Positions 1-19,327 of a stretch of DNA of 64,000 bases are shown here, in pieces (the stretch's first letter is position 1; each line of letters begins with the position of its first letter). A program made the position numbers and the translations under genes. The notes beneath the pieces were generated by a model, which saw only the letters and a list, made by a program, of their open reading frames with translations, was not told the origin of the DNA and did not search any database. Source of the stretch: Nitrospirota bacterium (GTDB taxonomy: Bacteria; Nitrospirota; Nitrospiria; Nitrospirales; UBA8639); the NCBI GenBank assembly GCA_003695915.1, contig RFGF01000003.1, positions 1 to 64,000 of the forward strand, given 5' to 3'.

Positions 1-1541
<1,541 letters not shown>

Positions 1542-1673
1542 TGCCCATCGCGCACCCCAATCTCGTGACGCTCGGCTCGTGACTGCTCCGGCTGCTTTCC
1601 CCGACAGAGAGCACCCCTCTCCACCAGCCTGAACATTCCGGCCGGTTCGCTGAACTACGTTCGATCAAAAACG

Positions 1674-1701
1674 AAGAAGCCGCGGGAGCGCGCGGCTTCT
1701 T
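1674..1701 (-). terminator. Hairpin between secA and hsp20, terminator of hsp20
   Basis: An 11-bp perfect stem (AAGAAGCCGCG, 1674-1684, with CGCGGCTTCTT, 1691-1701) closes a 6-nt loop. Read on the minus strand it is followed by CGTTTTTGAT, a short U-tract, so it should end the hsp20 transcript. On the plus strand no T-run follows, so its effect on secA is less certain. Confidence 0.75.
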
Positions 1702-1741
1702 CCCAGCCCCGCCGAAAGACAGAGAATCAGAGGGAATGTTG

Positions 1742-2176
1742 TTATTGGATCGTAATTTGGCGGGGCCGTGCGTGGGCCTTTTTGGGAACGGTGATCATCA
1801 CCAGCCCATCGCGGAACACGGCTTTGGCTTGATCGGGGTCCGCACTCGGCGGCAAGCAATAGGACCACGTAAACGCACTCACGGGAATCTGCCGCACATG
1901 ATAGGTCCGACCGTTCATCTGTGGCGTCTCACTCGACGGCTCGGCTTTTCCTTCGACACGGAGGACCCCGTTTTCAACTTGGATATCGATCTGCTCGGCC
2001 TTCCAGCCAGGGATGGCCAATTCGAATCCATATTGCTCATCGTCCTCCCACACATTGCAGGGAGGCACGCCCATGCTCGTCATTCCAGGTTGTCGGAACA
2101 TCTGCACGGATTGCAGAGCCTCGTTGAACATGCGTTCGATTTGAGCCTCGAAAGGATCATACGCTGTGAGTGCCAT
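1742..2176 (-). CDS. Small heat-shock protein, Hsp20/alpha-crystallin family
   Basis: This 144-residue protein is an ATP-independent holdase that binds unfolding proteins. The alpha-crystallin domain covers roughly residues 40-135: it starts at NVWEDDEQYGFELAIPGW, continues through VENGVLRVEGKAE, and ends with the A-x-x-x-DGLVMITVPK segment typical of beta-9. The C-terminal tail has ITIQ rather than a clean I-x-I motif. ATG is preceded by AAGGAGG at good spacing. About 125 bp upstream, before the CRISPR trailer copy, must hold its promoter; I see no clear sigma-32 box or CIRCE element. The length is normal for bacterial class A/B sHSPs. Confidence 0.93.
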   Translation of the reverse strand: MALTAYDPFEAQIERMFNEALQSVQMFRQPGMTSMGVPPCNVWEDDEQYGFELAIPGWKAEQIDIQVENGVLRVEGKAEPSSETPQMNGRTYHVRQIPVSAFTWSYCLPPSADPDQAKAVFRDGLVMITVPKKAHARPRQITIQ

Positions 2177-2302
2177 AGCAATCCCTCCTTGTTACAGCTA
2201 ATGAGTTATTGCTGAATAGAGAACGCACCCAACATTTCAATCAAGGCGGCAATCAAGTAATCCTCTTTCTGAAAAAGTCAAGAGGGGGTTTTGCTGAGCC
2301 GT

Positions 2303-2517
2303 CCTTCTCTTGAAAAGAGATTCAGCCGGCAAGCTCTTGCGGTTACGATAAGTAACCACTCGCTTCACCGGCTGCATGCCCTCCTCACCGAAAAAGCCGT
2401 TTCCACTTCGTTATCTGTAGCCAGGCGATCCAAGGCGTGAGCGCCTTGGAAAGCGAGACCACGCGAGTAGAAGCGAGAACCTCGCTTGTTCAGACCTCAA
2501 TCGACGGCGTCGCTTCC
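2303..2517. repeat. CRISPR trailer-side repeat, copy A
   Basis: About 210 bp align almost without gaps to 4142-4358 (roughly 85-90% identity by eye). Each copy directly abuts a degenerate CRISPR repeat with the same kind of damage in its first ten bases. Copy A contains an 8-bp hairpin CCAAGGCG-TGAG-CGCCTTGG at 2431-2450 that is broken in copy B. No credible coding frame is shared. It is best read as the conserved array-distal flank, duplicated with the end of an older array. Confidence 0.8.
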
Positions 2518-2625
2518 CCTACAGGCCCTTCTTCGTCAGGAAGGTCGATGCAACTAAGGGGAGTGCGTTTTCCGTATCCAGAATGATGTTCTTTCAGTTC
2601 CCCCTTCGTAGGAAGGGCAATGCAA
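2518..2625 (-). CRISPR. Fossil CRISPR mini-array (two degenerate repeats, one spacer)
   Basis: Two decayed copies of the local repeat lie at 2518-2553 and 2591-2625 with a 37-bp spacer (2554-2590). The first keeps the CTTCGT core and GGAAGGTCGATGCAA end but has lost the CTTTCAGTT end. The second starts with CTTTCAGTTCCC, then has CTTCGTAGGAAGGGCAATGCAA, with point changes and a 1-bp deletion. No further repeats follow in either direction. It is the remnant of an array older than the one at 4359-6076. Confidence 0.85.
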
Positions 2626-2844
2626 CACCGTATATGGATCTGACCACCATGGGACACATCATAAAGAAATTCCCTTATGTGCGGGGTTGAGGGTCGTAAT
2701 GCACAGAGATGGTTGACTTTCAACAGGCATGCATGAAAATCGATAGAGTGCTGAAAGTTGTGGATGGTTATGGTATGACCGTGTCCTTGAGTTTCCTCGC
2801 ACCTAGAGAATGGGTTACTTCAGTACCGCATTACGTGATGTGCC
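2626..2844. other. Non-coding stretch between fossil array and membrane pseudogene
   Basis: No reading frame with coding character, no further CRISPR repeat and no RNA gene were recognised here. It presumably holds the promoter of the broken membrane gene that begins at 2845. Confidence 0.5.
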
Positions 2845-3524
2845 GTGAAAAATTCTGAGTCCGCCCTATTCCAAAAGTTTTGGACCGTGGTGGTGTTGAG
2901 TTTTCTCATCACTTCCGCGATTTATGTGTGGGTGCCTTGGCTTCGCAAACCGCTTGTTCGGGAAAACAATATTCTGGAGCTAGTGACAGCCCTGCTCTTC
3001 CTGACGGTGGCTATCCTTGGAATAAAGCATTTGGTTAGGTGCGGGCTGACCTATCATGGAAAAGTCGCTTGGAGTATCCCGTTGTTGGGGCTTTTGGGGT
3101 TTTTAGAGGAAATCAGTTTCGGACAGAGTTTTTTGTATTATGAGGTGCCAATAGTGAAGGGGGCAAAAATCGATGCACTACATGATTTTCTACAAGTGCT
3201 GGTTAACTTGCTGCGGAAATGGCCCTCAGTTGGTTGTCCATTGGGTTGGTATTTGGGGCGTGTTGTCTGCTCGGGTATGCCATCGTGCGTTTCCGGCTTT
3301 ATGATTATCAATTCTATGCCCAACAGTTGCGATCATATCCTCCTTTGAAATTTGTAGCGCTCTGCCTAGGATTTTTAGCCGTAGCGACTGTTTTGGATTT
3401 GGAATGGCTAGAGCATCATTATTGGGTCTTTCTGGAAGAGTTTTTAGAAGCTGCTGCTTCTTTGGCCTTGTTGTTTGCCTATCTGATGATGCGCAGTTTA
3501 CCGATGAAGCAGCGGGTGGGATAG
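2845..3524 (+). pseudogene. Integral membrane protein broken by one frameshift
   Basis: Two overlapping frames together make one protein of about 225 residues. The first (GTG 2845 to about 3220) has a hydrophobic N-terminal helix (FWTVVVLSFLITSAIYVW), a second helix (VTALLFLTVAILGI) and the sequence GFLEEISFGQ. The second (from about 3219) continues with helices (LSIGLVFGACCLLGYAI, FVALCLGFLAVATVL and a last one ending LALLFAYLMM). LEEISFGQ resembles the EEISWGQ signature of an unnamed family of membrane proteins; function unknown. The break lies near 3200-3225. GTG 2845 has no visible ribosome site. It sits between two copies of a CRISPR flank, so it may be inserted cargo that has decayed. 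Confidence 0.6.
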
Positions 3525-4141
3525 GATCGCTCCTCCCTAAATAAATGCTACTGGCTAGCGATCATGCCCTAATTATGAAACCGCTTTGGATTCGCCATAC
3601 GGAGTTCATCGTTGGAATCGGGCGACCAGGACGACGTGCTTCCTGAAGCAGCTGGTATAAAGTAACGGGGCCACCGTGTGTGGTTAGCGGTTCAACCGAG
3701 CAGCCAAATCGGCGCGCAGGTACGGAGTTGGGAATTGGGCTTGAAGAGTTGCCCATGTCCCTCCTGCGAGCCGCCATCCTCATCGTGAAATTTCTGCGCC
3801 TCGTCAACCATCATGGCATTGACGTGGTGCGACGCATGGCCCTACTAAAAACAGGGGTACGGTCATGATAGCTGGACGGCATCGCTGGCCAGCCAACTGG
3901 CTCTTCGCCGTCCATTGGTGATCCGATCCCGTCACAACTCTACGCCCGTCTCTGCCACTGCGACGCGCGATCGCCCTCGTCGTGCCACATCTGCGGCGGC
4001 ACCTCATTCGCTTCCATAGCACCAGGCCCCAATGCGGCCCTCCGCTCTCAGATCATCCCCGGCGAGTCTGAGCAGGCGCCGCATTCCTACCCTGAGGACG
4101 GCGATTGCTCCTCAGCCTCCCCGCGGGCTCGGATGAACCGG
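3525..4141. other. Non-coding stretch before trailer copy B
   Basis: About 600 bp without a frame of convincing composition on either strand. Short open frames (for example 3562-3807 minus and 3680-3868 plus) have no ribosome site and no recognisable motif. It may be decayed coding sequence, but nothing is identifiable. Confidence 0.5.
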
Positions 4142-4358
4142 CCTCCTCCTGAAAAGAGATTCAGCCGTCGGGCTTCTATGGTTATCACAAGTAACCGCTC
4201 GCTTCACCGGCTGCATGCCCTCCTCACCGAAAAAGCCGTTTCCCCTTCGTCATCTGTAGCCAGGCGATCCAAGAAGTGAGTGCCTTGGGAAGCGAGGCCA
4301 CGCGAGTGGAAGCGAGAGCGCCTCTTGTCCAGACCCCCAATCGACGGCATCGCTTCCC
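4142..4358. repeat. CRISPR trailer-side repeat, copy B
   Basis: Second copy of the 2303-2517 element, offset by 1839-1840 bp with one indel. It ends directly at the degenerate terminal repeat of the main array. Its position at the end with the damaged repeat, opposite the cas genes, and the absence of a promoter pointing into the array argue that it is the trailer and not the leader. Confidence 0.78.
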
Positions 4359-6076
4359 CCAATAGGCCCCTCTTCGTAGGGAAGGTCGATGCAACCAATC
4401 GCTCACTTTCGCCGCATTCCCGTATGGATGACTTTCAGTTCCCTCTTCGTAGGGAAGGTCGATGCAACTGCGTTACGAGAAATGCCGCGTTGGAATCCCA
4501 GAGAATTGATCTTTCAGTTCCCTCTTCGTAGGGAAGGTCGATGCAACTCGTCTCTTCGAAGAAAACGCCGCGCATTATTCGCTCTTTCAGTTCCCTCTTC
4601 GTAGGGAAGGTCGATGCAACCGAAACCGAGCCTCAGTCTCCGGAAGCCCCCCAGTCTTTCAGTTCCCTCTTCGTAGGGAAGGTCGATGCAATGTGTTGCC
4701 TGACAGACCGGACACCAATGAGCATCCTTTCAGTTCCCTCTTCGTAGGGAAGGTCGATGCAATAACGAGCGCGAAATCGTCAAGCAGCAAAAAATCAAAT
4801 CTTTCAGTTCCCTCTTCGTAGGGAAGGTCGATGCAACAAGGTTTTCTGCGCATGATTCGCAGAGAACCAATCTCTTTCAGTTCCCTCTTCGTAGGGAAGG
4901 TCGATGCAACTTTGACGGAAAATTGGAGTCGCAATATCGGATATTGCCTTTCAGTTCCCTCTTCGTAGGGAAGGTCGATGCAACTGACCGTGTTCTCATC
5001 GACCATCACACCTAACCGGCGCAACTTTCAGTTCCCTCTTCGTAGGGAAGGTCGATGCAACTTCTTCAGCTGCCATCTTCGACGGAGGTTTCTCGTGCTT
5101 TCAGTTCCCTCTTCGTAGGGAAGGTCGATGCAAAGCTCACTCCGTTGTGAGAACCAAGTCGTGCCTTTGCTTTCAGTTCCCTCTTCGTAGGGAAGGTCGA
5201 TGCAATTTTCAATGGATTCCCCCGAATGCCTCCCCGTGGCCCTTTCAGTTCCCTCTTCGTAGGGAAGGTCGATGCAAGGCGGCATCACGAGCGGCCCGAC
5301 CATCGCTGGCGACTTTCAGTTCCCTCTTCGTAGGGAAGGTCGATGCAATTATTCGGAGCGCGGACCATTCACCGAAAATAATATGTCCTTTCAGTTCCCT
5401 CTTCGTAGGGAAGGTCGATGCAATTCGTGATGGCGATGGTATGGATCGTGGTGATCTGGCTTTCAGTTCCCTCTTCGTAGGGAAGGTCGATGCAATGCTT
5501 TGATTGCACCCGTTGTGCTTTATATTCGACCTTTCAGTTCCCTCTTCGTAGGGAAGGTCGATGCAAACCCTGACTGTTCAGCCATTTTGATTGAGGAACT
5601 CACTTTCAGTTCCCTCTTCGTAGGGAAGGTCGATGCAACTTGAACGGCAATGTAAGCAGATCGGTGTGAATGTGCGACTTTCAGTTCCCTCTTCGTAGGG
5701 AAGGTCGATGCAACTGCAGAAGGAGACCGACGCCTACGTCAGCCTCTACACTTTCAGTTCCCTCTTCGTAGGGAAGGTCGATGCAACTCAAGGACTTTCT
5801 TGACGTGCGAGCGCGGGTCATAGGCTTTCAGTTCCCTCTTCGTAGGGAAGGTCGATGCAAGCTAACTCATCGGGACTAAACAAGCCCCGCCCCTGCCTTT
5901 CAGTTCCCTCTTCGTAGGGAAGGTCGATGCAACCGGCAATGGTAAAGGGCATGGGTTCGATGAGTTCCACTTTCAGTTCCCTCTTCGTAGGGAAGGTCGA
6001 TGCAACTTGGGCATGGTTGATGTCTCCGGTTAAATGATGTCTTTCAGTTCCCTCTTCGTAGGGAAGGTCGATGCAA
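4359..6076 (-). CRISPR. Type I-B CRISPR array, 24 repeats and 23 spacers
   Basis: Twenty-three identical 36-bp repeats plus one degenerate terminal copy (4359-4394) are separated by spacers of 35-43 bp. Perfect copies start at 4432, 4511, 4584, 4656, 4727, 4801, 4874, 4948, 5025, 5098, 5170, 5242, 5313, 5388, 5460, 5531, 5603, 5678, 5751, 5825, 5897, 5970 and 6041. On the minus strand each repeat contains a 6-bp stem TTCCCT/AGGGAA with loop ACGAAG and ends in ACTGAAAG, a typical 8-nt Cas6 5' handle. This sets crRNA sense as minus, with the leader at the cas4 side and the oldest spacers at 4395. Spacers show no match I could see inside the window. The base following the repeat (plus strand) is C in 13 of 23 cases, so the repeat could also be scored as 37 bp. 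Confidence 0.98.
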
Positions 6077-6349
6077 CGCTCGGTAAGTCCCCGGAAAATC
6101 GGCACAATTTGCGGACGGTTCGACCAAAAATATCGAAACGGGAGAAATCGTTCAAGAGGGGGAGGGGTTTGCGAAAATTCGCTCTCGCGGCCGTCCTATG
6201 CCATCGAGTGCCAATCCGGAGGTCTCGTATGGACCACATCATTGTGCTTCTGATTCTGTTTTGACTTCTCCGGCAGCGGGGGTGAGACTCCCGCTGCCAT
6301 TCGCTTGCGCATGCCGCTTCGACCGAGCATTCCGACACGGTCGTGCATC
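6077..6349 (-). promoter_or_regulatory. CRISPR leader with promoter
   Basis: The stretch between the cas4 stop and the first repeat has no gene. On the minus strand it carries TTGAAC (6150-6155), a 17-bp spacer and TATTTT (6127-6132), a good sigma-70-type promoter. Transcription would start about 40-45 bp before the leader-proximal repeat (6041-6076) and run into the array. This agrees with the polarity given by the repeat handle and the degenerate repeat at the far end. Confidence 0.75.
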
Positions 6350-6934
6350 TTACCAGATGTCGCCGCAATAGTTCCGATATTCGCAGTCGGTGCAGCGCGC
6401 ACGGACGTTCGTCGCCTCCGGCAGTCGCTGGGTCACGATCATGCAGCGAATGGCGTCCATCGTGTCGCGGGTCTGCGCGCGCAGCGCGTCGGTGATCACG
6501 ATGCGCTCGATCCGATCGCCGGGGATGAGATAGAGAAACCCTTCGGTGACCTGGCACGCATAGGCCTCTTCGACCAGCATCGCATACCCGCACAACTGCA
6601 TCCGATGATTGGTTCGGACCGGCCCTGCCGTCTCCTTGAAGTCCACGAGATACCATCCCACGGACGATTCGATCAAGAGATCGAGTTTGCCGGATAGGCC
6701 GAGCCGTTCGGACGTCAACCATACGTGGAAATGCCGGCGGCCATCGGGCAACCGGTAACGCGCGAGCGTACGGCGCTGCTCCAAACGATCGATCCGCGCT
6801 TCGGCGGTCTGGCCGTGCGCCATTTTATAGGTCGGCGCTCGATCGACCGGCATGACATAGTGGTAGAAGACGATGCGCGGGCAATATTCGTACTGTTTCA
6901 GGTCAGTGACCTGCAGCATCAACGGTGCGGTCAT
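6350..6934 (-). CDS. cas4: CRISPR-associated exonuclease Cas4
   Basis: Cas4 is a RecB-like nuclease with an Fe-S cluster that trims prespacers and helps define PAM and orientation for Cas1-Cas2. The 194-residue product has the first cluster cysteine C18 (YEYCPR), the three C-terminal cysteines C181, C184 and C190 (CTDCEYRNYC), and the nuclease motifs GKLDLLIE and VDFKET followed by a QLCGYA motif. It overlaps the cas2 end by 32 bp; the second ATG (6919) would reduce the overlap. The order cas1-cas2-cas4 is less usual than cas4-cas1-cas2. It is the last gene before the leader. Confidence 0.95.
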   Translation of the reverse strand: MTAPLMLQVTDLKQYEYCPRIVFYHYVMPVDRAPTYKMAHGQTAEARIDRLEQRRTLARYRLPDGRRHFHVWLTSERLGLSGKLDLLIESSVGWYLVDFKETAGPVRTNHRMQLCGYAMLVEEAYACQVTEGFLYLIPGDRIERIVITDALRAQTRDTMDAIRCMIVTQRLPEATNVRARCTDCEYRNYCGDIW

Positions 6935-7208
6935 CGGACGGGTCGTCTTCGTCGAGCGGGTTGTCGATGGTCAGGCAGGTTCGCAGATCTTTGTCGCAGA
7001 CAGGCTGGATGAGGATTTTGCCCGATGCGTCGCCCAGTACGTCGCCGATGCGCAAATAGAGTTCCTCGCGTTTGTTGCGCGTCAACGTGCCGAGAAACGC
7101 GCTGAACTGCACGCGCTGGAGGCCATAGTCTTTGCACACCTCGGCCACGCGCGTTCGAATCGCATCGTTGGGAATATCGTACAGCACGTAGGTGGTCACC
7201 TCGTCCAC
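6903..7208 (-). CDS. cas2: CRISPR-associated endoribonuclease-like protein Cas2
   Basis: Cas2 is the ferredoxin-fold homodimer at the centre of the Cas1-Cas2 integrase. The 101-residue protein begins with a beta strand carrying the conserved aspartate (TYVLYDIPND) and has the typical LQRVQFSAFLG segment and a C-terminal LIQPVCDKDL strand. The last 16 residues are acidic and overlap cas4, so they may be a tail without a fixed role. It starts 9 bp after the cas1 stop, which suggests co-translation. Confidence 0.95.
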   Translation of the reverse strand: MDEVTTYVLYDIPNDAIRTRVAEVCKDYGLQRVQFSAFLGTLTRNKREELYLRIGDVLGDASGKILIQPVCDKDLRTCLTIDNPLDEDDPSDDRTVDAAGH

Positions 7209-7217
7209 GATCTCACC

Positions 7218-8525
7218 TCACCATTTGAAGCTGAAGGGACGATAGGGGCCTTCGCGCCGGAGGAAGGCGCAGAGCGCCCGGGCTTGCATTTGTATGATCG
7301 ATTTGATCTGAAATTTTTTGCCGCGGACCGATTCGGTCGATTCCAGGCGCTCGAGAATTTTGGCGGCGTAGCGGGCGCGCGTGTCTTCGTCCAGCAGACC
7401 GCCTTTCAGGACGACGGCCTCTCCCAAATTGATGTGGGCGATCACCGTGCGATCGACGACCGGCTGCCGGAATTCTTCGACCAGATCCAGCACGAGCGAC
7501 GGTTTGCCCGGCCGGTCGACATGGAGAAAGCCGGCGAACGGCTCCAGGCCGGCATTGAGCACGGCGCCCCAGACCTGGGCATACAAAATGCCGTAGCCGT
7601 AATTGAGCAAGGCGTTCACGGCGTCGGTCGCGCCACGATGCGTGCGGCCCAAAAACTCGGTCCGCTGGCCGATGATGATTTTCACGCCTTCCCAATACAG
7701 CCGTCCGGCTGTGCCTTCGTACCCCATCAGCGTCTCGCGCACCGCATCCGCGGTCGCCCCGTCGATCTGCTGAATGGCCGGTCGCAGTTGGCGAATTTGA
7801 CCAGCGAGGCGCGCGACGGATTCGAAGCGGGCCGGATCCTGCTGCTTGAGGTATTTCCCGAAATAGCGGAGCAGGCGCTCCTGGTTTTTGAGTTTGCCCA
7901 GCACGAAGAGTTTGGCGAGATCGCGCCCGCGGTCATCGTTCATGGCGGCCAATTGTTCGCGGCGGGAGACGACCGTGGCCGTGAGCATCGGCGAGGAGAG
8001 CATGGCATAGGGTTTCCCGCTATTGGTGAGAAAACTCAGGCGGATGCCACGCTTGCAGAGTTCTTCGATCACATCCGACGAGACCGTGATCCCGCGCGAG
8101 GCGACGACCACTTCGCTCAGGCGGAACAGCGGGACTTCGTAGATCGCTTTTTTGCCTTCCCGTACGATGAGCCGCTCGCTCTTTTTGGAGAGAAACATGC
8201 CGAACCCCGACAGCACGATCTGCGAGGTATCGCCGGTTTTGACCATGCGAATGCCTTCGTCGATGATGTAGGGCTCGCCTTCGTCGGGTTCGATCTCGAG
8301 CGGAATGACGACGGCTTCCGGCTCGCCGGTAAAGAGATTGAGCTGGGGCGGCGGACGATGCCAAAGACGAGACGGGGCGAAACGCTCAGCGGAGGCGGCA
8401 GCCGACTCCGGCGTCTCGGCGTGATCGGGGATTCGCGTAGGTTCGGGAGACTCCATGGCATGCATCCTTTTCCAGACGATCGGTGTTCTCCTTTCTCTGT
8501 CGGGAAAAGCGTGGAGAAACTTCAC
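7218..8525 (-). CDS. cas1: CRISPR-associated integrase Cas1, with N-terminal extension
   Basis: Cas1 catalyses spacer integration. The metal ligands of the family are present: E in YEGTAGRLYW, H in GFLHVDRPGK and D in SLVLDLVEEF. The N-terminal beta domain starts near QIVLSGFGMFLSKKSERL. The open frame gives 435 residues against about 330 for common Cas1, because some 95 residues precede the core. Part of this depends on the start: 8525 has no ribosome site, while ATG 8456 (MESPEPTRIP) has AAAAGGA about 8 bp upstream and would give 412 residues. The extension is rich in Pro, Ala and Glu and holds PPQLNLF; its role is unknown. It lies after the toxin-antitoxin pair. Confidence 0.93.
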   Translation of the reverse strand: MKFLHAFPDRERRTPIVWKRMHAMESPEPTRIPDHAETPESAAASAERFAPSRLWHRPPPQLNLFTGEPEAVVIPLEIEPDEGEPYIIDEGIRMVKTGDTSQIVLSGFGMFLSKKSERLIVREGKKAIYEVPLFRLSEVVVASRGITVSSDVIEELCKRGIRLSFLTNSGKPYAMLSSPMLTATVVSRREQLAAMNDDRGRDLAKLFVLGKLKNQERLLRYFGKYLKQQDPARFESVARLAGQIRQLRPAIQQIDGATADAVRETLMGYEGTAGRLYWEGVKIIIGQRTEFLGRTHRGATDAVNALLNYGYGILYAQVWGAVLNAGLEPFAGFLHVDRPGKPSLVLDLVEEFRQPVVDRTVIAHINLGEAVVLKGGLLDEDTRARYAAKILERLESTESVRGKKFQIKSIIQMQARALCAFLRREGPYRPFSFKW

Positions 8526-8805: not shown

Positions 8806-9240
8806 TTACTTACGCCTGGACAGTTCATTACGGGGAAGAATGGAAAATCGGCCCAGCCTGGCCGGTCGGTACACGGTGAAATCCCGCCGATCTAGTGTAA
8901 AAATCCGACGGAGTTTTTCCCGCTCAGCCACCCGAACCAAGGCCGCATCGGCAAGATCCATAGGGAGATTTTTGTATTTTCGCATCAGATCTCGCATTCG
9001 GGGCACGTCGGCACGATCGAGAGGCAATATATCGAGGGCCTCTGCCTCCACCATCTCCCAAAGCGCTTCTTGCGCATTCTGAAAGGGGCGTAAAAGGTAC
9101 ATTGCCTCGGTGAGGACAGGCCATACCGTTACTAATGGATCGGTGATCGTCCGGAGTGTCGTCCGGCAAATATCATGGTTGGGATCACTTCGATCCAATA
9201 GCGCAATCAATGGCCCGGCATCAACGAGAATGGCGGGCAT
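8806..9240 (-). CDS. PIN-domain ribonuclease toxin (VapC-like)
   Basis: This 144-residue protein is a probable PIN-domain RNase of a type II toxin-antitoxin pair. The acidic residues expected in the active site are visible: D7 in ILVDAGPLIALLD, E45 in VLTEAMYLL, D94/D97 in LPMDLADAALV, and D116/D120 in FTLDRRDF. It overlaps the upstream RHH gene by 20 bp, the usual antitoxin-toxin arrangement. The pair sits between the interference genes (cas6 to cas3) and cas1, in the same direction, so it might help to keep the locus or might simply have inserted there. The target RNA cannot be told from sequence. Confidence 0.88.
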   Translation of the reverse strand: MPAILVDAGPLIALLDRSDPNHDICRTTLRTITDPLVTVWPVLTEAMYLLRPFQNAQEALWEMVEAEALDILPLDRADVPRMRDLMRKYKNLPMDLADAALVRVAEREKLRRIFTLDRRDFTVYRPARLGRFSILPRNELSRRK

Positions 9241-9490
9241 GAGCGTTTTCTCTCAAGAGGGCAGCAAATTTTTCTCCCGTTTTTTCAGAAAGCTTGGCCC
9301 CTCGGCTATCCACGCAGCCAATCAAATGGGCAATCAACTCATACGGGCGTTTACTGGGTTCCTGGCCTGTAGAGTGTTTCAGGAGAAGTTCGATTGCCTC
9401 GCGAACGACTTCGGATTTCGTCTGCCGCTTTTGTTTGGCGAGGCGTCGAACACAACGCTCTGTTTTAGGATCTAATCGTACACTCAACAT
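9221..9490 (-). CDS. Ribbon-helix-helix antitoxin (CopG-like)
   Basis: This 89-residue protein starts with an RHH fold: the strand LSVRLD, then helices TERCVRRLAKQKRQTKSEVVREAIELLLK. Such proteins bind their own operator and their C-terminal part (about 45-89) binds the toxin. ATG 9490 has GGGGAG about 9 bp upstream. The 3' end overlaps the PIN toxin. It is probably autoregulated together with the toxin, with the operator in the 9491-9833 gap. Confidence 0.87.
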   Translation of the reverse strand: MLSVRLDPKTERCVRRLAKQKRQTKSEVVREAIELLLKHSTGQEPSKRPYELIAHLIGCVDSRGAKLSEKTGEKFAALLRENAHARHSR

Positions 9491-9833: not shown

Positions 9834-11465
9834 TTACACTTTGCCGTCTACCCGGCAGGATCGTGCACTATGTCTTCGCCGCCATAGCTCAAGCAGGAGC
9901 AACGCCGCTCCGTCGAAGGCGAGGAGGTATGATCCGGCATCAAAAACGGGAATTCGCCAATCGAGCGCCTGCTCGACCGCCCTACGAGGGACTACGACAA
10001 AGATATGATTCTCTCGGGCCATGAGGTCAGACACGGGCGTGGCTTCCCCATCCTGATAGAGAAGCAGGTTCGGAAAGTCCTTCGTCTCCAAAATGACGCC
10101 ACAATCGTCGTCGGTGAAAATTTCGCTCGCATGCACCCGCCGGTACTTTCCGATGCCTTTAATCGTCAGCCTGCCGAGCTTTTCATTCCAAGCAAGGCCA
10201 ACCGCGCGCTTGAGCAATGTAGCAAGATCGGCTTCATACTCGCCCATTTCCCAATCCTGCCGCCGGTGTTGTTCCATAAAGTCATGCACCTTCACAGCCG
10301 GAAGAGAAGTCCGGAAACGATTGAGTCTCCGATACGCAGCAAGCCAGCGGCTGTGCTTCTTACCTTGAGCACATCGCTGAAAGGCCTCCTTTGCTTTTGC
10401 GTTCTCGGCCTCACATCCAAGGCGCTGAGCATGGTCGGCCAAAATAGCTTCAATCTTTTCCCGTAACTGGGTAAGAACCTCAGGCCGGGTATGGCTATCT
10501 CGCTCCACGACAGCTATTAGATTCTCGGCTAAGGCCCTGGTAGTAAGCATTCCGGATTCGGTAGTGACGAACCAGGCATAAGCGTTTGCCGATGGATACC
10601 AGGCATGGATCCGTTCTTCAAAATAGCTACGGTCAATCTCCGGAGGCAAATTGGCCATACCAGTGAACACATTCGGAGGTACAAGAGCGAAAGCCTTTCC
10701 TGGGCTATGGCGCCCAACGCGACCGAATCGTTGGAGGAAGGATGCCGCCTCTAATGCCTCGAACAGCAAATAGTCGCATCGAAAATCGACGCCCACTTCG
10801 ATAGCGGACGTGCCGAGAGCCAATAGCTTATCTTTTGGGGTTCGAATTGCTCGATGGGACAGGCCCCGGATGACGGCTAATGTGTCTCGCGGAAACCCAA
10901 CTTCAGCCAATCGATCTTCCAATCGGATAGCATTTACAACCGAGTTCACGATGACCACAGCAGGCAGATAGTCATCATCCGGTATTTCACAACGGAGCCG
11001 TTCTAACTCTGGTTTGAGGCACAGGATCTGCTCAAGCAGAATTTCTACCGGGTCGTTGCCGAAAACCTGGATAGGTGTGATCTCTACAGCATGTACAGCA
11101 GTACGCCAGCCATGTATAGCAGCATCAGGCATTACCCGTGGATCGATAAGCAAGGGATTGAGTACCTTTGCCAGTAAAGTACGAACATCGGGATGGGGCG
11201 TGGCGCTTAATAAGGTAATGCGCTTGAATATTTCAAAGCCACGAGCCAAAGATGCCATAGCCAGTGCATGGGCTAGTTCGACACCGTGGTATAAATGAAA
11301 TTCATCCATGATGAGCGTTTCATATCGTCGCAGGGGCTCGAACGGTTCGGCATGATATTGAAGGCCAAGAATCAGGAAGAGAATATCTGGATTGGTGAAA
11401 ACGATTTTAGGCTTGTCGGGATTGAGCAGACGCCGAAGCGGCTCGCCCCGGCTTTCGTATTGCAT
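9834..11465 (-). pseudogene. Second Cas3-type helicase (type I-D Cas3'-like), 5'-truncated
   Basis: The 543-residue frame has the DExH box (IMDEFHLYHGVEL), motif III (LLSATP), and the second helicase lobe (ALGTSAIEVGVDFRCDYLLFEA, then LQRFGRVGRHSPG). The wording DEFHLYHG and the C-terminal region resemble the HD-less Cas3' of type I-D loci. The N-terminal part with Walker A (GKT) is missing: the frame begins about at motif Ib (VFTNPDILFLIL), and a TGA lies in frame just before FTPRAIAEAM, only 97 bp from the cas3 stop. Without Walker A it cannot bind ATP in the normal way, so it is probably a relic, unless it works as a non-ATPase part. A complete cas3 lies next to it. Confidence 0.7.
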
Positions 11466-11562: not shown

Positions 11563-13821
11563 TCAGAGTTCTAGTCCCCTTATAGAGGAGTACGGCGAGC
11601 TAAGAGTCCACGGGTCCGTTGAGGTATTGAGCTTATCTCTAAGGTAACTTAGTGATCTGACCCGTATCGGTACCAAAAGTGCATTCGCTTCGATCCACAG
11701 CCCCTGGGCCCGTTTGTTCTCATATTTCTCAACGAGGGATGTAGGTAACACCTCTAGAATTCCATCGGTGCTCTCAATAACCTGTTCGACCCAATCTTGG
11801 TGTGCGCCAGCGAGAAGGCGTTTTTCAAAGTCGGCAATGTCTGGGTGATTCAATCCCTCTTCAAAGGCTTGCCTCTCCTGACCCCGATACCCGACGCCAT
11901 AAACGTAATCAGCTGCCTTCATAAGATCATGCTCGCTGACTGGGTTTGGAATAGCCCGCAGCCTCTCAATTGAGATGAGAACCTTGCAACTTTCATCATG
12001 GGTTTCACCAGAGCATTCACAGTAAAGGTGATGTTTATTCACTTGCTTCGTAAACACCACTATCTTGGCAGGTTTTCTTTTGCCTCCACGGTTCACACGT
12101 CCCATACGCTGGATAATTGCATCAATTGGAGCTGGTTCAAGAAACGCTTGGTCAAAATCCACGTCTAAACTAACCTCAACAACTTGGGTAGCTATGAGAA
12201 CGCGTGGCAGTGGAAGACCAATCAACCGGCTTTCAATTCGATTGCGATCCTCATTGTTAAATCGACCATGGAGCAGGCAGACCTCGTCACCCAGATGAGA
12301 TTGCAAGTGATCAAATACCTGCTGGGCAGTACGAACATGGTTGCATACCAAAAGCGTCCTTCCTTCAGATTTCACAGCTTCGAGGATCTCATTTAGGTTG
12401 TCCCAGATGTTTCCTTCACGAAGCTCGACCATATGCCGCTTTCGGTCAAGAACTTCGCGATCCTCTTGCATGGAAGGATCGGGCGTAACAATAGAAATTT
12501 CTCCTAGTGAGTCACATATTAATACTTCCAAGAATTTAGGCAGCGTCGCGGACATAAACAGACAGCGCGCACCCCATCGGTTCGCCAGTTTTGCTGTGGC
12601 CAACGTCAGGCCAACCATGCGGGGATCATAGGCGTGTACTTCATCAAAAATGAAGCATGCCTTAGGGAATTCTGCCAGCATTAGTTCCCAACCTTTCCCC
12701 CTCAGGGCATAACGTAGGATTTGGTGAGGCGTACAGATTCTTATTGGGAACCATATTTGTCGGGCTAGGTCACTTAATGTTCTTGCGCCCTCTTGACGCT
12801 CAAGCCGGGAACAGTCATCTTCACTCGATTCCAACATAGAGTAGAGAGCCGCTGTAGCTCTGGAGTGAAGTAGACCCACGTGCTGTTTGCCGAACACGCC
12901 TGGCATACTCGAGGATGTCCCAGGGCCGAGCCTCTTATACATTGCGTTGATGCTAGCGGTGTAGGGGAGCACATAAAAAAGACGCGCATTAGGACATTGA
13001 TTGCGCTGAGCCCAGAGTAAGGCGGCCTCGGTTTTCCCCGATCCGGTTGGTGCCCGTAAAATCGCCGAACCTTGTATTGACCCTACGCGTTCCTGAAAAG
13101 GCCGCGGGTTCTGATGAAGTACTGTGAAACTTTTTAGGTCCGGGATCCAGCTAGGGATATAGCGCGCGCTCCCTAGATGATCGCTTGCTATGGTCAGACC
13201 ACGAACCAGCGCCGCGCGGTAGCGCTGGATGAAAGGTATTGCGTAGAGTTGCCCTCTTTTGCCGCTTCCTCGGATGAGCCATTCTCGGGCTAGGGAAAGG
13301 CCCTTCTTGAGTTCGAAACGAACAATAGTCAGGTCGTGCCGCCCAAGAACCCCGCAGATTTTCTCCCACTCATATTTAAACAGTGCTCTATTCTCTTCCC
13401 ACTCCTGAACCATTTCTTCAAAAATTGGCGTCACATCTCCCTCGTACGGAATTTGTTCAGGAGGTAGACATCCGAAAGCGGGACTTGTGATACCATCCGA
13501 GGGTAATGCCTTGTGATGCGTTAGGATTGCAAGGAGAACGCTTGGCATGATCCCAGGCAAAGACGACGCGAACGCTGCGGATAAGATTTCGTGTCGCTTT
13601 CCACCCCAGTTCTTCTGTTCACCGCGCAAAACGCGTTGAAAACCCGAAGCTGCTTTTCCCAGATCGTGAAGTGCAACCGCCAAAAGAACTTCTTGCTCAA
13701 GTGTTTGCCTTTCGGGGTCTGGAAATGGGAGCGTCGCAAGAAGCTCTTTAGCTGCCCGTAAGCACCATTCAGTATGTTCGGCGAGTGTCTCGCCTGAGCT
13801 TTTCGCCAATAACCTACTCAT
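11563..13821 (-). CDS. cas3: CRISPR-associated nuclease-helicase Cas3
   Basis: Cas3 is recruited by Cascade to an R-loop and degrades the target. The 752-residue protein has an N-terminal HD nuclease (H16 in EHTEW, HD at 52-53 in LHDLGKAASGF, HH at 102-103) and a C-terminal SF2 helicase: Walker A APTGSGKT at about 257-264, FIFDEVHAYD, the SAT motif LFMSATLP, the lobe-2 motif VLIATQVVEVSLDVDFD and motif VI QRMGRVNRGGK. All key residues are present. Its ATG overlaps the cas5 stop by 4 bp (ATGA), a sign of translational coupling. Confidence 0.95.
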   Translation of the reverse strand: MSRLLAKSSGETLAEHTEWCLRAAKELLATLPFPDPERQTLEQEVLLAVALHDLGKAASGFQRVLRGEQKNWGGKRHEILSAAFASSLPGIMPSVLLAILTHHKALPSDGITSPAFGCLPPEQIPYEGDVTPIFEEMVQEWEENRALFKYEWEKICGVLGRHDLTIVRFELKKGLSLAREWLIRGSGKRGQLYAIPFIQRYRAALVRGLTIASDHLGSARYIPSWIPDLKSFTVLHQNPRPFQERVGSIQGSAILRAPTGSGKTEAALLWAQRNQCPNARLFYVLPYTASINAMYKRLGPGTSSSMPGVFGKQHVGLLHSRATAALYSMLESSEDDCSRLERQEGARTLSDLARQIWFPIRICTPHQILRYALRGKGWELMLAEFPKACFIFDEVHAYDPRMVGLTLATAKLANRWGARCLFMSATLPKFLEVLICDSLGEISIVTPDPSMQEDREVLDRKRHMVELREGNIWDNLNEILEAVKSEGRTLLVCNHVRTAQQVFDHLQSHLGDEVCLLHGRFNNEDRNRIESRLIGLPLPRVLIATQVVEVSLDVDFDQAFLEPAPIDAIIQRMGRVNRGGKRKPAKIVVFTKQVNKHHLYCECSGETHDESCKVLISIERLRAIPNPVSEHDLMKAADYVYGVGYRGQERQAFEEGLNHPDIADFEKRLLAGAHQDWVEQVIESTDGILEVLPTSLVEKYENKRAQGLWIEANALLVPIRVRSLSYLRDKLNTSTDPWTLSSPYSSIRGLEL

Positions 13822-14537
13822 CCTGTCAGCCAGCGATGCAAGTAGATAGCGTCGTCATCCCGTTCTGAATCTAATGGGTGGAACAGATCTTCCCGCTCGA
13901 CCTGAAAGCGAAGATCTCTTACTATCGGCGGCATTGCGTGGTAGTGGCCGAAGGGCCCGGATCGCCGTGGCTGGCCCACTGCTGTGTTATCAAACCATTC
14001 GGGCAACCTGACGGCCAAACCAGGAATGCCCTCTTGTGGGTAGGGAATCAATGTAGGACCTACTGCGCCCGTCTTTACGGGGCGGAGATCTACCTCCCTA
14101 ACCCACTTGATCCACGCGATATCCTGGGATCGACCGAAACATGGTGTTGCTGCAGGTTTTTCAAATGCAATTCTGAGATCAAGGTTGGTGACGTACAAAT
14201 CAAGGCGCGGCCCCCAGTAAACCTGGCGGTAACTGATCCCTTGCCCTTTACTGTGTGGCCTGAGTCGCCTTTGTTTGTCGAGCTGCCAGCGAACCGTCCG
14301 CTCCAATTCCACATCGTGCGACAAACAGTGGAATTCAAAACCAATGCGCGTCTCGGACGGCGCAACTATGCGACCAGCGCAAGCGCTCATCATGCCTAAT
14401 AGATTACTGTAAGCGGGCATGGGTGTACTCACCTGCGTCCCACTGATTACCAAAGGGTGCCGAAAGGACGCCGTTAACCCCTCAAGTCTGACATGCAGGA
14501 CTTTGATCGAGCTCAAGGCAACAAATCTCCCATACAC
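13818..14537 (-). CDS. cas5: CRISPR-associated protein Cas5 (Cas5t, type I-B)
   Basis: Cas5 caps the 5' handle of crRNA in Cascade. The product of up to 239 residues has the Cas5t N-terminus VLHVRLEGLTASFRHP followed by a segment typical of the fold (TPMPAYSNLLGMMSACAGR). The frame opens with GTG 14537, which overlaps cas7 by 25 bp. TTG 14516, which overlaps the cas7 stop as TTGA, would begin closer to the family's usual N-terminus. The C-terminal half is rich in charged residues and ends with DDAIYLHRWLTG. It lies between cas7 and cas3. Confidence 0.9.
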   Translation of the reverse strand: MYGRFVALSSIKVLHVRLEGLTASFRHPLVISGTQVSTPMPAYSNLLGMMSACAGRIVAPSETRIGFEFHCLSHDVELERTVRWQLDKQRRLRPHSKGQGISYRQVYWGPRLDLYVTNLDLRIAFEKPAATPCFGRSQDIAWIKWVREVDLRPVKTGAVGPTLIPYPQEGIPGLAVRLPEWFDNTAVGQPRRSGPFGHYHAMPPIVRDLRFQVEREDLFHPLDSERDDDAIYLHRWLTG

Positions 14538-15940
14538 TTCACGCCGTCCATAGGAGTCAGCACCCTAACTTCAACTGCTGTAGTTTCGGATGGCTTCTCT
14601 CGTTCAGGCCCGACCAGCTTCGTTTTCGCACAAGCTTCAGACGGTCTTTCCACGCGGTACCAACCTTCGAGCGCACGAACATCAGCTTCATTTTTCAGGT
14701 AACCAGCACGCACACCTATTAGAATAGGCGTTGCAATGCGATCGGCGTAATCTTTGATAACTTCCTTGAAAGCCTCAATCTTGAATAGGGGCGCATCGCC
14801 ATCGTCCTGAAAAAGATGGTTGAATATGGGATTGCCACACGTGAGCCCAGCAAGAACGAGCACCTTGGGCGCGATGTCTGTTCCAAACTGCGCCTGCTTG
14901 GCTCCGCCACGAAGGACCGCGAGAGCCCGAAAGAGATCCGCAGCACGTTTCTTTCGGATCTCGTCTCGGTTTGCTAGTCGGTAGACACGGCCGATAGCTC
15001 CGCTTTGAGTCAGCATGTTATAAGGCTCTTGGTCTGTCACGTCCTCGATCTTGAGTTCTTGTAGAAATTTCTTGACCTTGGTCTCCTCCAGCTCAATCCG
15101 GTCGCCCACGTTCCAAAACACACCCAAGCGACTATAATCCAAGCAGAAGATTCCCTGCAGATGCGTGTTGTAAAAACGCGTTGTGTATGGCAGGGGACTT
15201 GTAGCGCTCTCAATGAAATTGACTTGTTTGCCCTTCTCTTTTGCTTTGCCAGACAATAATTCGCGAAGTTTTTCCAAATTCGGCTCTTCCGCTGCGGCTT
15301 TCACTTGCTCTACCCATTCCTTCCCAAACTCCTCCAGCCTTCTCCAGAGGTCCCCTTTCTTGTCCTGTTTCTTTTCCGAAACCGAACTGAGAAATCGCTC
15401 CACCTCGGCCTCCGCCAAGGCCTTGGGATCGTATTTGGTCAGATGGACAAATCCCTCGTCCTGCCCCCTCCATCCTGACGACCGTAGGGAAACAAGCAAA
15501 GAGGCTGCGAAGGGAGAGGCACGCATTACTGCCCTGGTAGTCTCGCTGCCCTCTTCCTCGCCTTCTTCATCATCTTCTTCGGTAGCCCTGCGGCGCCCCT
15601 GACCCTCTTGGGCCCGCATGTAGCCAAAGATGTCATCTTCAGGGAACTCGACGGGATTTAGTTTGCCTGCAATCTTGTTGACGTTCCCCTTTGGGTTCCA
15701 ACCGATGGCTTGGGGCTCACTGGCTGGCCAGCCTGCTTCCTGCACTGCCGTTGTCCGTAGCCATCGCTTCCAGGCCTGAGCGGAAACGTACGGAACTTCG
15801 TTGCGGCCGTCACGAAATGTCTTGGGAACAGTGACGTTCCGATCCTCTCCTTCACCTAGACCTGCGCCATTAAGAAACGCGCCATCGGCCTGAATCAAGA
15901 ACGTTCCCGCCACATGAGTCAACTTGCTGTTAGCGCTCAT
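14513..15940 (-). CDS. cas7: CRISPR-associated protein Cas7 (Cst2/DevR family)
   Basis: Cas7 forms the crRNA-binding backbone of type I Cascade. The N-terminus LTHVAGTFLIQADGAFLNGAG is typical of the Cst2/DevR group. A later segment (residues about 135-165, MRASPFAASLLVSLRS) matches the family's conserved RRM core. At 475 residues it is longer than common Cas7 (300-350), partly owing to an acidic stretch near residues 115-135 (EEDDEEGEEEGSE) and a Lys/Glu-rich helical insert at about 180-245. ATG 15940 has AAGGAGGAG 5 bp upstream; the TTG just before it is not needed. Confidence 0.92.
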   Translation of the reverse strand: MSANSKLTHVAGTFLIQADGAFLNGAGLGEGEDRNVTVPKTFRDGRNEVPYVSAQAWKRWLRTTAVQEAGWPASEPQAIGWNPKGNVNKIAGKLNPVEFPEDDIFGYMRAQEGQGRRRATEEDDEEGEEEGSETTRAVMRASPFAASLLVSLRSSGWRGQDEGFVHLTKYDPKALAEAEVERFLSSVSEKKQDKKGDLWRRLEEFGKEWVEQVKAAAEEPNLEKLRELLSGKAKEKGKQVNFIESATSPLPYTTRFYNTHLQGIFCLDYSRLGVFWNVGDRIELEETKVKKFLQELKIEDVTDQEPYNMLTQSGAIGRVYRLANRDEIRKKRAADLFRALAVLRGGAKQAQFGTDIAPKVLVLAGLTCGNPIFNHLFQDDGDAPLFKIEAFKEVIKDYADRIATPILIGVRAGYLKNEADVRALEGWYRVERPSEACAKTKLVGPEREKPSETTAVEVRVLTPMDGVKCMGDLLP

Positions 15941-15955
15941 CAAAACTCCTCCTTC

Positions 15956-17932
15956 TCAAGGTTTGTTGGCTTGTTGATAAAGGTTAGCAAGTACCAAATG
16001 CATCTGGAATAACCGCTCTTCAGCGCATGAGCGACCCTCCTCGTCCTTAAGGAAATCCTCCCACTCATCTTCCGAAATGGGTCCTTTCGTCGAGCCTTCA
16101 TCCTCCTTTCGTGTCAACTGCCTCTTGAACCATAAAATGCCGAGTTCTCGCCGGCGAAGGCGTAACAGCACATCGCGGTGAAAACGATCAAGACCCCGGC
16201 GCTCAACATATTGCGAAAAGGTTGTCCGGAGTCGTCTCTCCACGGACATTGGGAGTCCCGATTTTTGGGGCACGGTAGGTGCCACGGCCGCTGGCCCCTC
16301 ACCTCTTATCCACTCGCTCCACAGGAGCCGCATCTGGAACAGCAGCTCACTGATTACGAATTGCCCACGGTCATTCTTGCAGAGGGCTTCCCAGCCACCG
16401 TAAGTGAAGTTGGAATCTTCCTCTCCCAATACCAGAAACTGTCCCCTGAGCCACCGGATACCGGAGCCGCTGCGGCCCAATCGACCGAGTGCTTCCTTAC
16501 GAAATCTATCGAGCCCCCGCTCGCCCTGATAGTGCTGGAAGATGATCAAGGCATAGTACTGAAGCATGGTCAGTTTGGAGTCTGGGTTTGTGGCGGTCGC
16601 CAGCCGACCATCGGAGGGAGGTTCAAAAGCGTCAGAATGATGTAGATAGTACCGAATGATGTTCCACCCATCGCAGCTCACGTGGATACCGGGCCCATCT
16701 TCCCTCAGGGGAAAAAGCTCCAAGTAATCAGTATGGCTAAACTTCCCCTCCTCCGCCAGTTGAGTCATTAGACGCCTTACCTGATTGCGAGCAGCACCGT
16801 CAAAAAACGCTTCTTCTCGCTGGAGTCGCTTCAAATCTCTGGGGGTGAGCCCTTGTTTAAGCTGACGAGCCAGATTGCGCGCGGTTACTAGTGCATGAGG
16901 AGAGCGTCCGCAGACCTGGGTTTGGTAAAGCGTGAAGAGCTTTGGACTGGCACCTTGCCTTTTGCCGCGAGGATACAAGCCAAAGTAATCACGCCGCTCG
17001 GTGATGCATCTGAAAAACGACTCCTTCTTCCTTTCATGGTCGATAAGACTTTCAACTTCCTGACGGAGCCCTTGGCGCACGGCTCCCCACAGAAACACTA
17101 AAGCAGGGTTGGGAATCTCCTGGATCTTGCACTCTGGCGATGCTCCGGAGTTCGTAAAGCGCCACACCTGAAGCGTCGTTCCTTGTGGAATATCCCCGAA
17201 ACGGGCTGCACCTTGAAGTCGCTCAAAAAGCGCCAGTAGACGCTTTGCAACAGCCCGACTCCCTTCTTTGGCTCCAATGGTTGCGTAATTGTCAGCTTTA
17301 ATCCTGCTTTGAACCTCAATTACGATATCGCGCACAAGTTCATACCACAGTTCAACTGATGTGGACTGAAAGACCGCAAGTCGTCCCTCCAGCAAAATCA
17401 TGCCCAGAGGCAGGTAGTGCACAGCAAAAAGGCACGTGGCACACAGGTGAACAGGCCTGGAGGCTGCGGGAAGAGCTTGAGCGTCACTCCCGAGACTACC
17501 CGACAAAGGAAACCAATCTCGGCCAACGAATCGTACTTGTTCTTTAACCCCACGACCTTTCAAAGCCCTCCGGCAAAGGCTGTTAAAATCCACGGACCTG
17601 GCAGCACCGCAAGCTTCGCAACGACGAGAAAGCCCCTCCCTGCCGATGTCACTAAGTAAACCATGCAGAATATCAACATAGATGCGCACACGGAGGTCCG
17701 AATCCTTCATGGATGGATTAGTAAGTAAAGAATTCTTGGTAAAAATCATCGTGAAGTTTTTTAGCTGGCTGTTCCAAGAGGCGAGCTGACTGCCATCTCC
17801 GTGAACCTTTGTGACAGCGTCGACAGTGAGGGTGCGAATATCGTCTAGGCCAGCCAATGCTGCGAGCACAGCGAGCCCTGTATCCACGAATGGGTTTCCT
17901 GTTAAATCCACGTTTACCTCGGATGCACGCAT
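15956..17932 (-). CDS. cas8: CRISPR-associated large subunit Cas8 (Cst1, CXXC-CXXC family)
   Basis: This is the large subunit of type I-B Cascade, which recognises PAM. Its identity rests on the opening GNPFVDTGLAVLAAL and two zinc-like knuckles, CEAC at about 105-108 and CATC at about 164-167 (658-residue numbering). ATG 17932 has GGAG 9 bp upstream; the earlier ATG 17968 has none. The C-terminus holds two similar modules with a period of about 107 residues, from about 472 and about 579, each starting RGLDRF and ending with LLFQM or RLFQM. They are helical and charged and could be a duplicated Cas11-like part. Cas8 of this group is about 450-600 residues, so the duplication explains the extra length. 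Confidence 0.9.
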   Translation of the reverse strand: MRASEVNVDLTGNPFVDTGLAVLAALAGLDDIRTLTVDAVTKVHGDGSQLASWNSQLKNFTMIFTKNSLLTNPSMKDSDLRVRIYVDILHGLLSDIGREGLSRRCEACGAARSVDFNSLCRRALKGRGVKEQVRFVGRDWFPLSGSLGSDAQALPAASRPVHLCATCLFAVHYLPLGMILLEGRLAVFQSTSVELWYELVRDIVIEVQSRIKADNYATIGAKEGSRAVAKRLLALFERLQGAARFGDIPQGTTLQVWRFTNSGASPECKIQEIPNPALVFLWGAVRQGLRQEVESLIDHERKKESFFRCITERRDYFGLYPRGKRQGASPKLFTLYQTQVCGRSPHALVTARNLARQLKQGLTPRDLKRLQREEAFFDGAARNQVRRLMTQLAEEGKFSHTDYLELFPLREDGPGIHVSCDGWNIIRYYLHHSDAFEPPSDGRLATATNPDSKLTMLQYYALIIFQHYQGERGLDRFRKEALGRLGRSGSGIRWLRGQFLVLGEEDSNFTYGGWEALCKNDRGQFVISELLFQMRLLWSEWIRGEGPAAVAPTVPQKSGLPMSVERRLRTTFSQYVERRGLDRFHRDVLLRLRRRELGILWFKRQLTRKEDEGSTKGPISEDEWEDFLKDEEGRSCAEERLFQMHLVLANLYQQANKP

Positions 17933-18033
17933 GCCGTCTTTCTCCTGCTCGAAAATTGCAATTTCCATGTCCAGTTAATGGTGTTCGCCACCCCTCTCAC
18001 AGGGACAAGGCAAGAATTGGCCAATTTCTGTTT

Positions 18034-18317
18034 TCACCCGCGCGCCTGCATCCAGGCGGTAGCTTGTGTCAGTAGTGCTGTTCGATCCATTTCTTCGAAC
18101 TCCCTTGGCAATGATGAGATCGTTTCTTCCCATACCCTCTCTGCATACCAAGCACTTATGATTTCGTTCGAATCTTTGCGGCAAACGAACATGGTCTGCC
18201 ATTCCTGGACGTAACCGTTTTCGTAGGCATGATAGATCGGCGACCAGAAATCGCTTTTGCAATATGATCGAGCTGGATGACGATCATCGGAACCTTTGGC
18301 GCGAAATAGGCGCTCAT
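18034..18317 (-). pseudogene. Small gene between cas6 and cas8, apparently frameshifted
   Basis: ATG 18317 has a near-perfect ribosome site (AAGGAGGAGG, 18327-18336, 9 bp spacing). Its frame begins MSAYFAPKVPMIVIQLDHIA and after about 24 codons turns into low-quality sequence. The -1 frame from the same place reads as good protein (SDFWSPIYHAYENGYVQEW, later AERVWEETISSLPREFEEM) up to a stop at 18034. Joining them at the GCAAAAGCG run gives a protein of about 94 residues, LDHIAK-SDFWSP. I do not recognise a family. It could be a lost A in a homopolymer (mutation or sequencing error) or, less likely, programmed -1 slippage. Its place in the cas operon suggests an accessory role. Confidence 0.6.
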
Positions 18318-18361
18318 TGGTGCAAACCTCCTCCTTGCCCAATCGACGGGGCTCGCCATGC

Positions 18362-19327
18362 TCATTCGACTGTCACCGTGTACCATCCATTGCCCCACAC
18401 GGCGTACTTTCCCACATGCGTGTATTGACCGAGGAGCAAAAGGGGCAGGAATTCCGCAATGGCCCCTTCATAGGTGGCTTCGCCGATGAATCCTCCCATG
18501 TCATGCTGATGGCCGGTTTTCCACGAGCGCCGGGATCGATCTTCCCACTGCACAGCCATTCGTACCGTGCGGACATGCTCGGCACGCACGCCGAAGTGTT
18601 TGAAATCGAGCGCGAGCGTCTGATGCGCGTAAAAATAGGCGAGGGCATTGATGCGATCGCGTACGCGCTTGACGAGATGATGAAAGGCCGGCTGGCGAAC
18701 GATGGCTCCCTCGCTTTTGAGACAGGTCGGCGTATGAAAGCGCACGGTCACCCGTCCAATGTGCTGCATCGCGAGCTCATGGGCCTTTCGTTCGCATTCC
18801 GCGTAGGTCAGGCTGAGCGTGTGCGGGCGCACGATCTCGTCCTGTCCGTTGTAGATCTCGACGCCCTCGTGTGTCAGAGGGTGCTGCTGCACGACCTGGC
18901 GAATACGAAACCGACCCCGTGCGTTTCCCATCCCACGCTCTCCCAATTCGCGAAAGGTCACCAGAAAATAAGGAAACATGGCCATGGCCTTTCCCATCAG
19001 AATGAGGTCGAAGCGTAAAGGATCCATGAGACGGGACTGAGCTTCGATATCGAGCGGACGATAGACAAAGGGGCGAGGGATATCGGCGTTCCGTCGCAAC
19101 TGCTCGGCATCCGGCGGAGGACTCGGTTCGAACAGTTGGCCGTAGGGACATGTCTGTTTTTGTTGACAGCGAGCCCGACATTCGCGAGGCGTTGAACACA
19201 CGAGGCGCTTGAAGGCCAGGCTGAATGCTCCGCGCAAGGTATTGCCGGGATTATCGGGATGCAGGCACAGACGATCTTCGGGGACGAGGAAGAATCGATA
19301 CTTGGCCAAGGAAAAGCCGTCGAGCAT
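18362..19327 (-). CDS. cas6: CRISPR pre-crRNA endoribonuclease Cas6
   Basis: Cas6 cuts the repeat hairpin and leaves the 8-nt handle ACUGAAAG on the crRNA. The 321-residue protein has two ferredoxin-like folds. The C-terminal one ends in the Gly-rich RAMP motif (ATYEGAIAEFLPLLLLGQYT followed by HVGKYAVWGNGWYTV), typical of the wide Cas6 family. The N-terminal half has the pattern GNTLRGAFSLAFKRLVC with several cysteines (CRARCQQKQTCPYG), common in Cas6 of this branch. It is the first gene of the cas operon and is separated from the response regulator by a 215-bp gap with a strong hairpin. Confidence 0.9.
   Translation of the reverse strand: MLDGFSLAKYRFFLVPEDRLCLHPDNPGNTLRGAFSLAFKRLVCSTPRECRARCQQKQTCPYGQLFEPSPPPDAEQLRRNADIPRPFVYRPLDIEAQSRLMDPLRFDLILMGKAMAMFPYFLVTFRELGERGMGNARGRFRIRQVVQQHPLTHEGVEIYNGQDEIVRPHTLSLTYAECERKAHELAMQHIGRVTVRFHTPTCLKSEGAIVRQPAFHHLVKRVRDRINALAYFYAHQTLALDFKHFGVRAEHVRTVRMAVQWEDRSRRSWKTGHQHDMGGFIGEATYEGAIAEFLPLLLLGQYTHVGKYAVWGNGWYTVTVE

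Follow-up and report, generated by a model that had tools for sequence, protein, structure and literature searches.

Why does the distal end of a type I-B CRISPR array occur twice in this genome, and what became of the copy that lies away from the array? The question is raised by an element of ~223 bp found in two copies near one end of a 64-kb stretch of DNA (the window, which is the whole of the 64,000 nucleotides analysed). The outer copy is located at 2295-2517 and the inner copy at 4134-4357, both on the minus strand.

The two copies and their repeats

That an element of about 210 bp is present twice had been claimed from the letters alone, and the coordinates and description of the copies given in that sequence-only reading were right. 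Aligned with each other, the two copies are 86% identical (E 2e-70), and a faint similarity extends leftwards to about 2286/4125. A common origin, which too low an identity would have spoken against, therefore withstood the comparison. Over 271 aligned columns, transitions account for 29 of the 39 substitutions, and such transition-rich differences look like natural divergence. The element was also considered as protein-coding and rejected as such: two frames of the inner copy have no Pfam hit, and the differences are not, by eye, enriched at third codon positions. Over 1500-6400, no Rfam model matched at E≤1.

Both copies abut a terminal CRISPR repeat that has suffered an identical loss of its 3' end, as had been noticed. 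In the crRNA orientation, the canonical repeat end ...GAGGGAACTGAAAG is replaced by ...GGGGCCTATTGGGG in the inner terminal repeat (4358-4394, minus strand; 30/36 match at 4359) and by ...AGGGCCTGTAGGGG in the outer terminal repeat (2518-2554, minus strand; 29/36 match at 2518). Degenerate distal repeats are common in CRISPR arrays. The alignment through element and repeat shows that the two array ends are of common ancestry.

On the outer side, a 36-nt remnant spacer (2555-2590, minus strand) lies between the terminal repeat and a second repeat (2591-2626, minus strand; 25/36 ungapped match), which carries substitutions and a 1-nt deletion. The outer unit consists of these two decayed repeats and one spacer, in agreement with what had been read from the sequence, and is situated ~1.8 kb from the working array; no additional repeats above chance were found in 2627-4140. 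No leader was found beside the outer repeats, where the flank is unlike the leader-side region of the main array. As it is without a recognisable leader, the outer end would be unable to acquire spacers by the usual route. The first 23 nt of the remnant spacer do not recur in the genome when as many as 3 mismatches are allowed, its 19-nt core is absent from IMG/VR contigs, and a comparison with phage and plasmid records gave no match and no protospacer.

The sequence between the copies had been described as a broken membrane gene and dead sequence. A frameshifted membrane-protein gene is indeed located at 2845-3524 (plus strand): its two frames jointly match an intact protein of 226 aa, 54% identical, in a genome of the same family (G001:C39:16006-16686). 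The frameshift, at about 3200-3250, is the sole visible lesion of the gene and may stem from an error in sequencing or assembly. No recognisable gene follows in 3525-4133, which showed no Pfam hit in six frames and no phage or plasmid match; the Pfam search likewise found no family match over 3525-4141.

The working array and its orientation

The main array (4432-6076, minus strand) has 23 perfect repeats of 36/37 nt in addition to the truncated terminal repeat, from which a spacer separates them. A leader-side region (6078-6349, minus strand) separates it from cas4, cas2 and cas1 (6350-8525, minus strand; NCBIfam), so that the array of identical repeats adjoins the adaptation genes, and cas3, cas5b, cas7b, cas8b and cas6 follow at 11563-19327 (minus strand; NCBIfam and PADLOC). 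These cas genes are apparently intact. Cas8b, Cas7b, Cas5b and Cas3 are encoded in one operon, and the system is of type I-B.

A related locus is found in Nitrospira sp. S1bin.12 (L094), whose Cas1 is 77% identical and whose repeat is 89% identical and in the same orientation. There, too, cas4 leads into the array and the repeats end in GGGAACTGAAAG, and the leader-side region found here has the same position and orientation; that locus differs in that its last repeat is intact, its trailer is unstructured and no trailer element is present. Its gene order, together with the polarity of the repeats, shows that the direction of reading of the array is leftwards, away from the cas genes. The element is thus distal to the leader, and its description as a CRISPR trailer holds; the terminal repeat of the array is degenerate, as at a trailer end. 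In having Cas4-Cas2-Cas1 at the leader side, Cas3/5/7/8b/6, a polarised array and a truncated distal repeat, the locus resembles an ordinary type I-B array with a degenerate trailer-end repeat, but differs in that the trailer end is present twice.

Several other features of the locus were observed. Spacer s12 of the main array (5278-5312) matches one fecal phage contig at 91% and, less well, minor tail protein genes of Microbacterium phages; as these phage matches are too few, no PAM was derived. The cas8b gene product (15956-17968) is matched by PADLOC models and by no NCBIfam model, so its sequence may be divergent. Within the type I-B operon, a second helicase of the Cas3 kind (cas3_cyano, type I-D-like) is encoded at 9834-11465; its match begins at profile position 96, and the N-terminal part, with the expected Walker A site, seems absent. 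Between cas1 and this helicase, 8806-9490 holds a two-gene unit of a 144-aa protein and a ribbon-helix-helix protein, the former giving no PADLOC hit and resembling, we presume, a PIN-domain toxin. Two more Cas1-like genes, 34% and 30% identical, occur elsewhere in the genome (L086 and L093; G000:C94:17228-18196 and G000:C49:149751-150410).

Hairpins of the outer copy and a possible function

The outer element contains four perfect hairpins (stem lengths 6, 6, 9 and 7 bp), whereas the longest stem in the inner copy is 5 bp. The first hairpin (2306-2320, TCTCTT-GAA-AAGAGA) has its stem broken in the inner copy, and the second (2341-2357, GGTTAC-GATAA-GTAACC) is reduced there to a stem of 5 bp. 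The third (2429-2450, TCCAAGGCG-TGAG-CGCCTTGGA), whose 8-bp core has no second site in the genome, and the fourth (2471-2487, AAGCGAG-AAC-CTCGCTT) are both broken in the inner copy. Folded as the minus strand, the outer element has a z-score of about -4.4 (-4.2 to -4.8) and the inner element one of about -0.7 (-0.5 to -1.1); the lowest value among 170 control folds from the window, made with fewer shuffles, is -3.05. A run of 46 nt free of differences between the copies exceeds the expected length (p 0.014). These z-scores and the p-value are uncorrected for the examination of both copies and of several folds. The 46-nt run hints at constraint or gene conversion. In the minus-strand fold of the outer copy, 12 of the 17 changed pairs are broken and none is changed on both sides, which, with two sequences only, is a weak test of covariation.

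Although the repeats on the outer side have decayed, the element there has not decayed further than its inner counterpart. The hairpins are most simply taken as ancestral features of the trailer that the inner copy has lost; it is also a possibility that they arose in the outer copy by template switches that make palindromes. Should selection have acted on the structure of the outer copy and been relaxed on that of the inner copy, the outer unit may have been kept as a functional RNA. This would consist of a crRNA-like mini-array and, after it, an RNA of four hairpins that lies upstream of hsp20, and would serve either as a guide in regulation or as a structured RNA of the trailer. We consider such a role improbable. 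On a separate point, AGCAAT/ATTGCT arms were seen by eye around the Shine-Dalgarno region of hsp20 (2172-2215), and might form an RNA thermometer.

A more specific function would be that of an ectopic mini-CRISPR, encoding a crRNA-like guide of the CreA kind through which Cascade would repress either the cas promoter or a toxin RNA encoded nearby. In creA, one spacer is flanked by two degenerate repeats, and the unit is linked to a type I-B system (PMC8501985, PMC9458426). The outer unit has the same architecture and is likewise linked to a type I-B system, and its 8-nt crRNA 5' handle, ACTGAAAG, is intact in the repeat at 2591-2626, which keeps the ...GGGAACTGAAAG end. However, a creA guide is defined by a match of its spacer nucleotides 1-5 and 7-11 to a promoter close by, next to a PAM, and no such match is present in 1500-6400 (best run 6), the cas promoter region has no seed match (best run 4), and the best match in the 64-kb window, a run of 10 inside cas8, is no better than those of ordinary spacers. 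The outer unit further differs from creA in that no creT was recognised and in that the damage to its terminal repeat is common to the ordinary array end. With no seed-matching target nearby or at the cas promoter, the outer unit was ruled against as a CreA guide or a guide for cas autorepression, and we regard this role as very improbable.

How the array end came to be present twice

The element had alternatively been proposed to be a mobile or structured repeat targeting the ends of CRISPR arrays. Both copies do lie at terminal repeats, and the outer one is rich in hairpins, so that the word structured fits the outer copy alone. A search of the whole genome, as had been suggested for the genome and its relatives, found two copies, both at CRISPR repeats, and not the many copies at unrelated sites that a MITE-like element would show. 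A search of 295 other Nitrospirota genomes did not find the element, matches of 18-44 bp (E 8e-4 or worse) being taken as chance. Nor was it found in six genomes with related Cas1, in a search run without a positive control, or in plasmid and phage records, and one of its core 22-mers is absent from IMG/VR viral contigs. Since it is confined to two sites and absent from the collections searched, a many-copy mobile element is disfavoured. Moreover, the homology takes in the terminal repeat as well, a better fit to duplication of the array and its flank than to two insertions. We therefore give insertion of a mobile or structured repeat hardly any weight.

The 86% identity over 223 bp and the same replaced repeat end point instead to an old doubling of the distal end of the type I-B array, whether it was duplicated directly or gained through recombination with a related locus; the outer copy is now a remnant. 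We argue that this is probably what happened. The distal end that became present twice would have comprised the trailer, the terminal repeat, which had been truncated before then, and probably one or more spacer-repeat units. The inner end would have stayed with the array whose cas genes are apparently intact, and the outer end, being leaderless, would have been reduced to a two-repeat remnant, cut off by the frameshifted membrane gene and the unrecognised sequence. That the duplication spanned more than the terminal repeat is something we infer, as we do its mechanism, its timing and the lack of present function.

Two claims of the sequence-only reading are modified by these results. It had proposed that an array end was duplicated or an older array split by an insertion; the common origin of the ends stands, but a plain insertion split would not itself yield two trailers. 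It had also proposed that the outer part decayed while the inner array stayed active. The decayed outer repeats and the missing leader agree with this, but of the two elements the outer is the one with more structure. The same observation counts against the duplication favoured here, as a plain remnant should not retain hairpins that the other copy loses. The unexpected length of the 46-nt run and the failure to find a relative with the ancestral layout count against it as well.

It is conceivable, though unlikely, that the two ends are xenologs. The outer end would then be what is left of a CRISPR locus that was there first, and the inner array would have come later, together with the cas genes, from a related strain. 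The 14% divergence between the copies, the flanks without homology past the element and repeats, and the absence of a close relative of the array's Cas1 among 40 same-family genomes are consistent with such a lateral replacement. The locus was not found in a close relative, so that arrival and local duplication are indistinguishable. Synteny did not locate the ancestral site, as no secA, hsp20 or cas1 was found in the nuoN-flanking regions from four same-family genomes, and nuoN and the array are on separate contigs in the Nitrospira sp. S1bin.12 genome. No relative with the ancestral layout was found in the comparison set, which is without a same-genus genome.

With duplication of the distal end as the preferred explanation, the locus would be a clear case of the old end of a CRISPR array that was copied and then stranded. 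Its history is mostly one of ordinary genome decay, with one unexplained structural oddity in the outer hairpins. Were the structured outer copy functional, it would be one more CRISPR-derived regulatory RNA, of which few are known.
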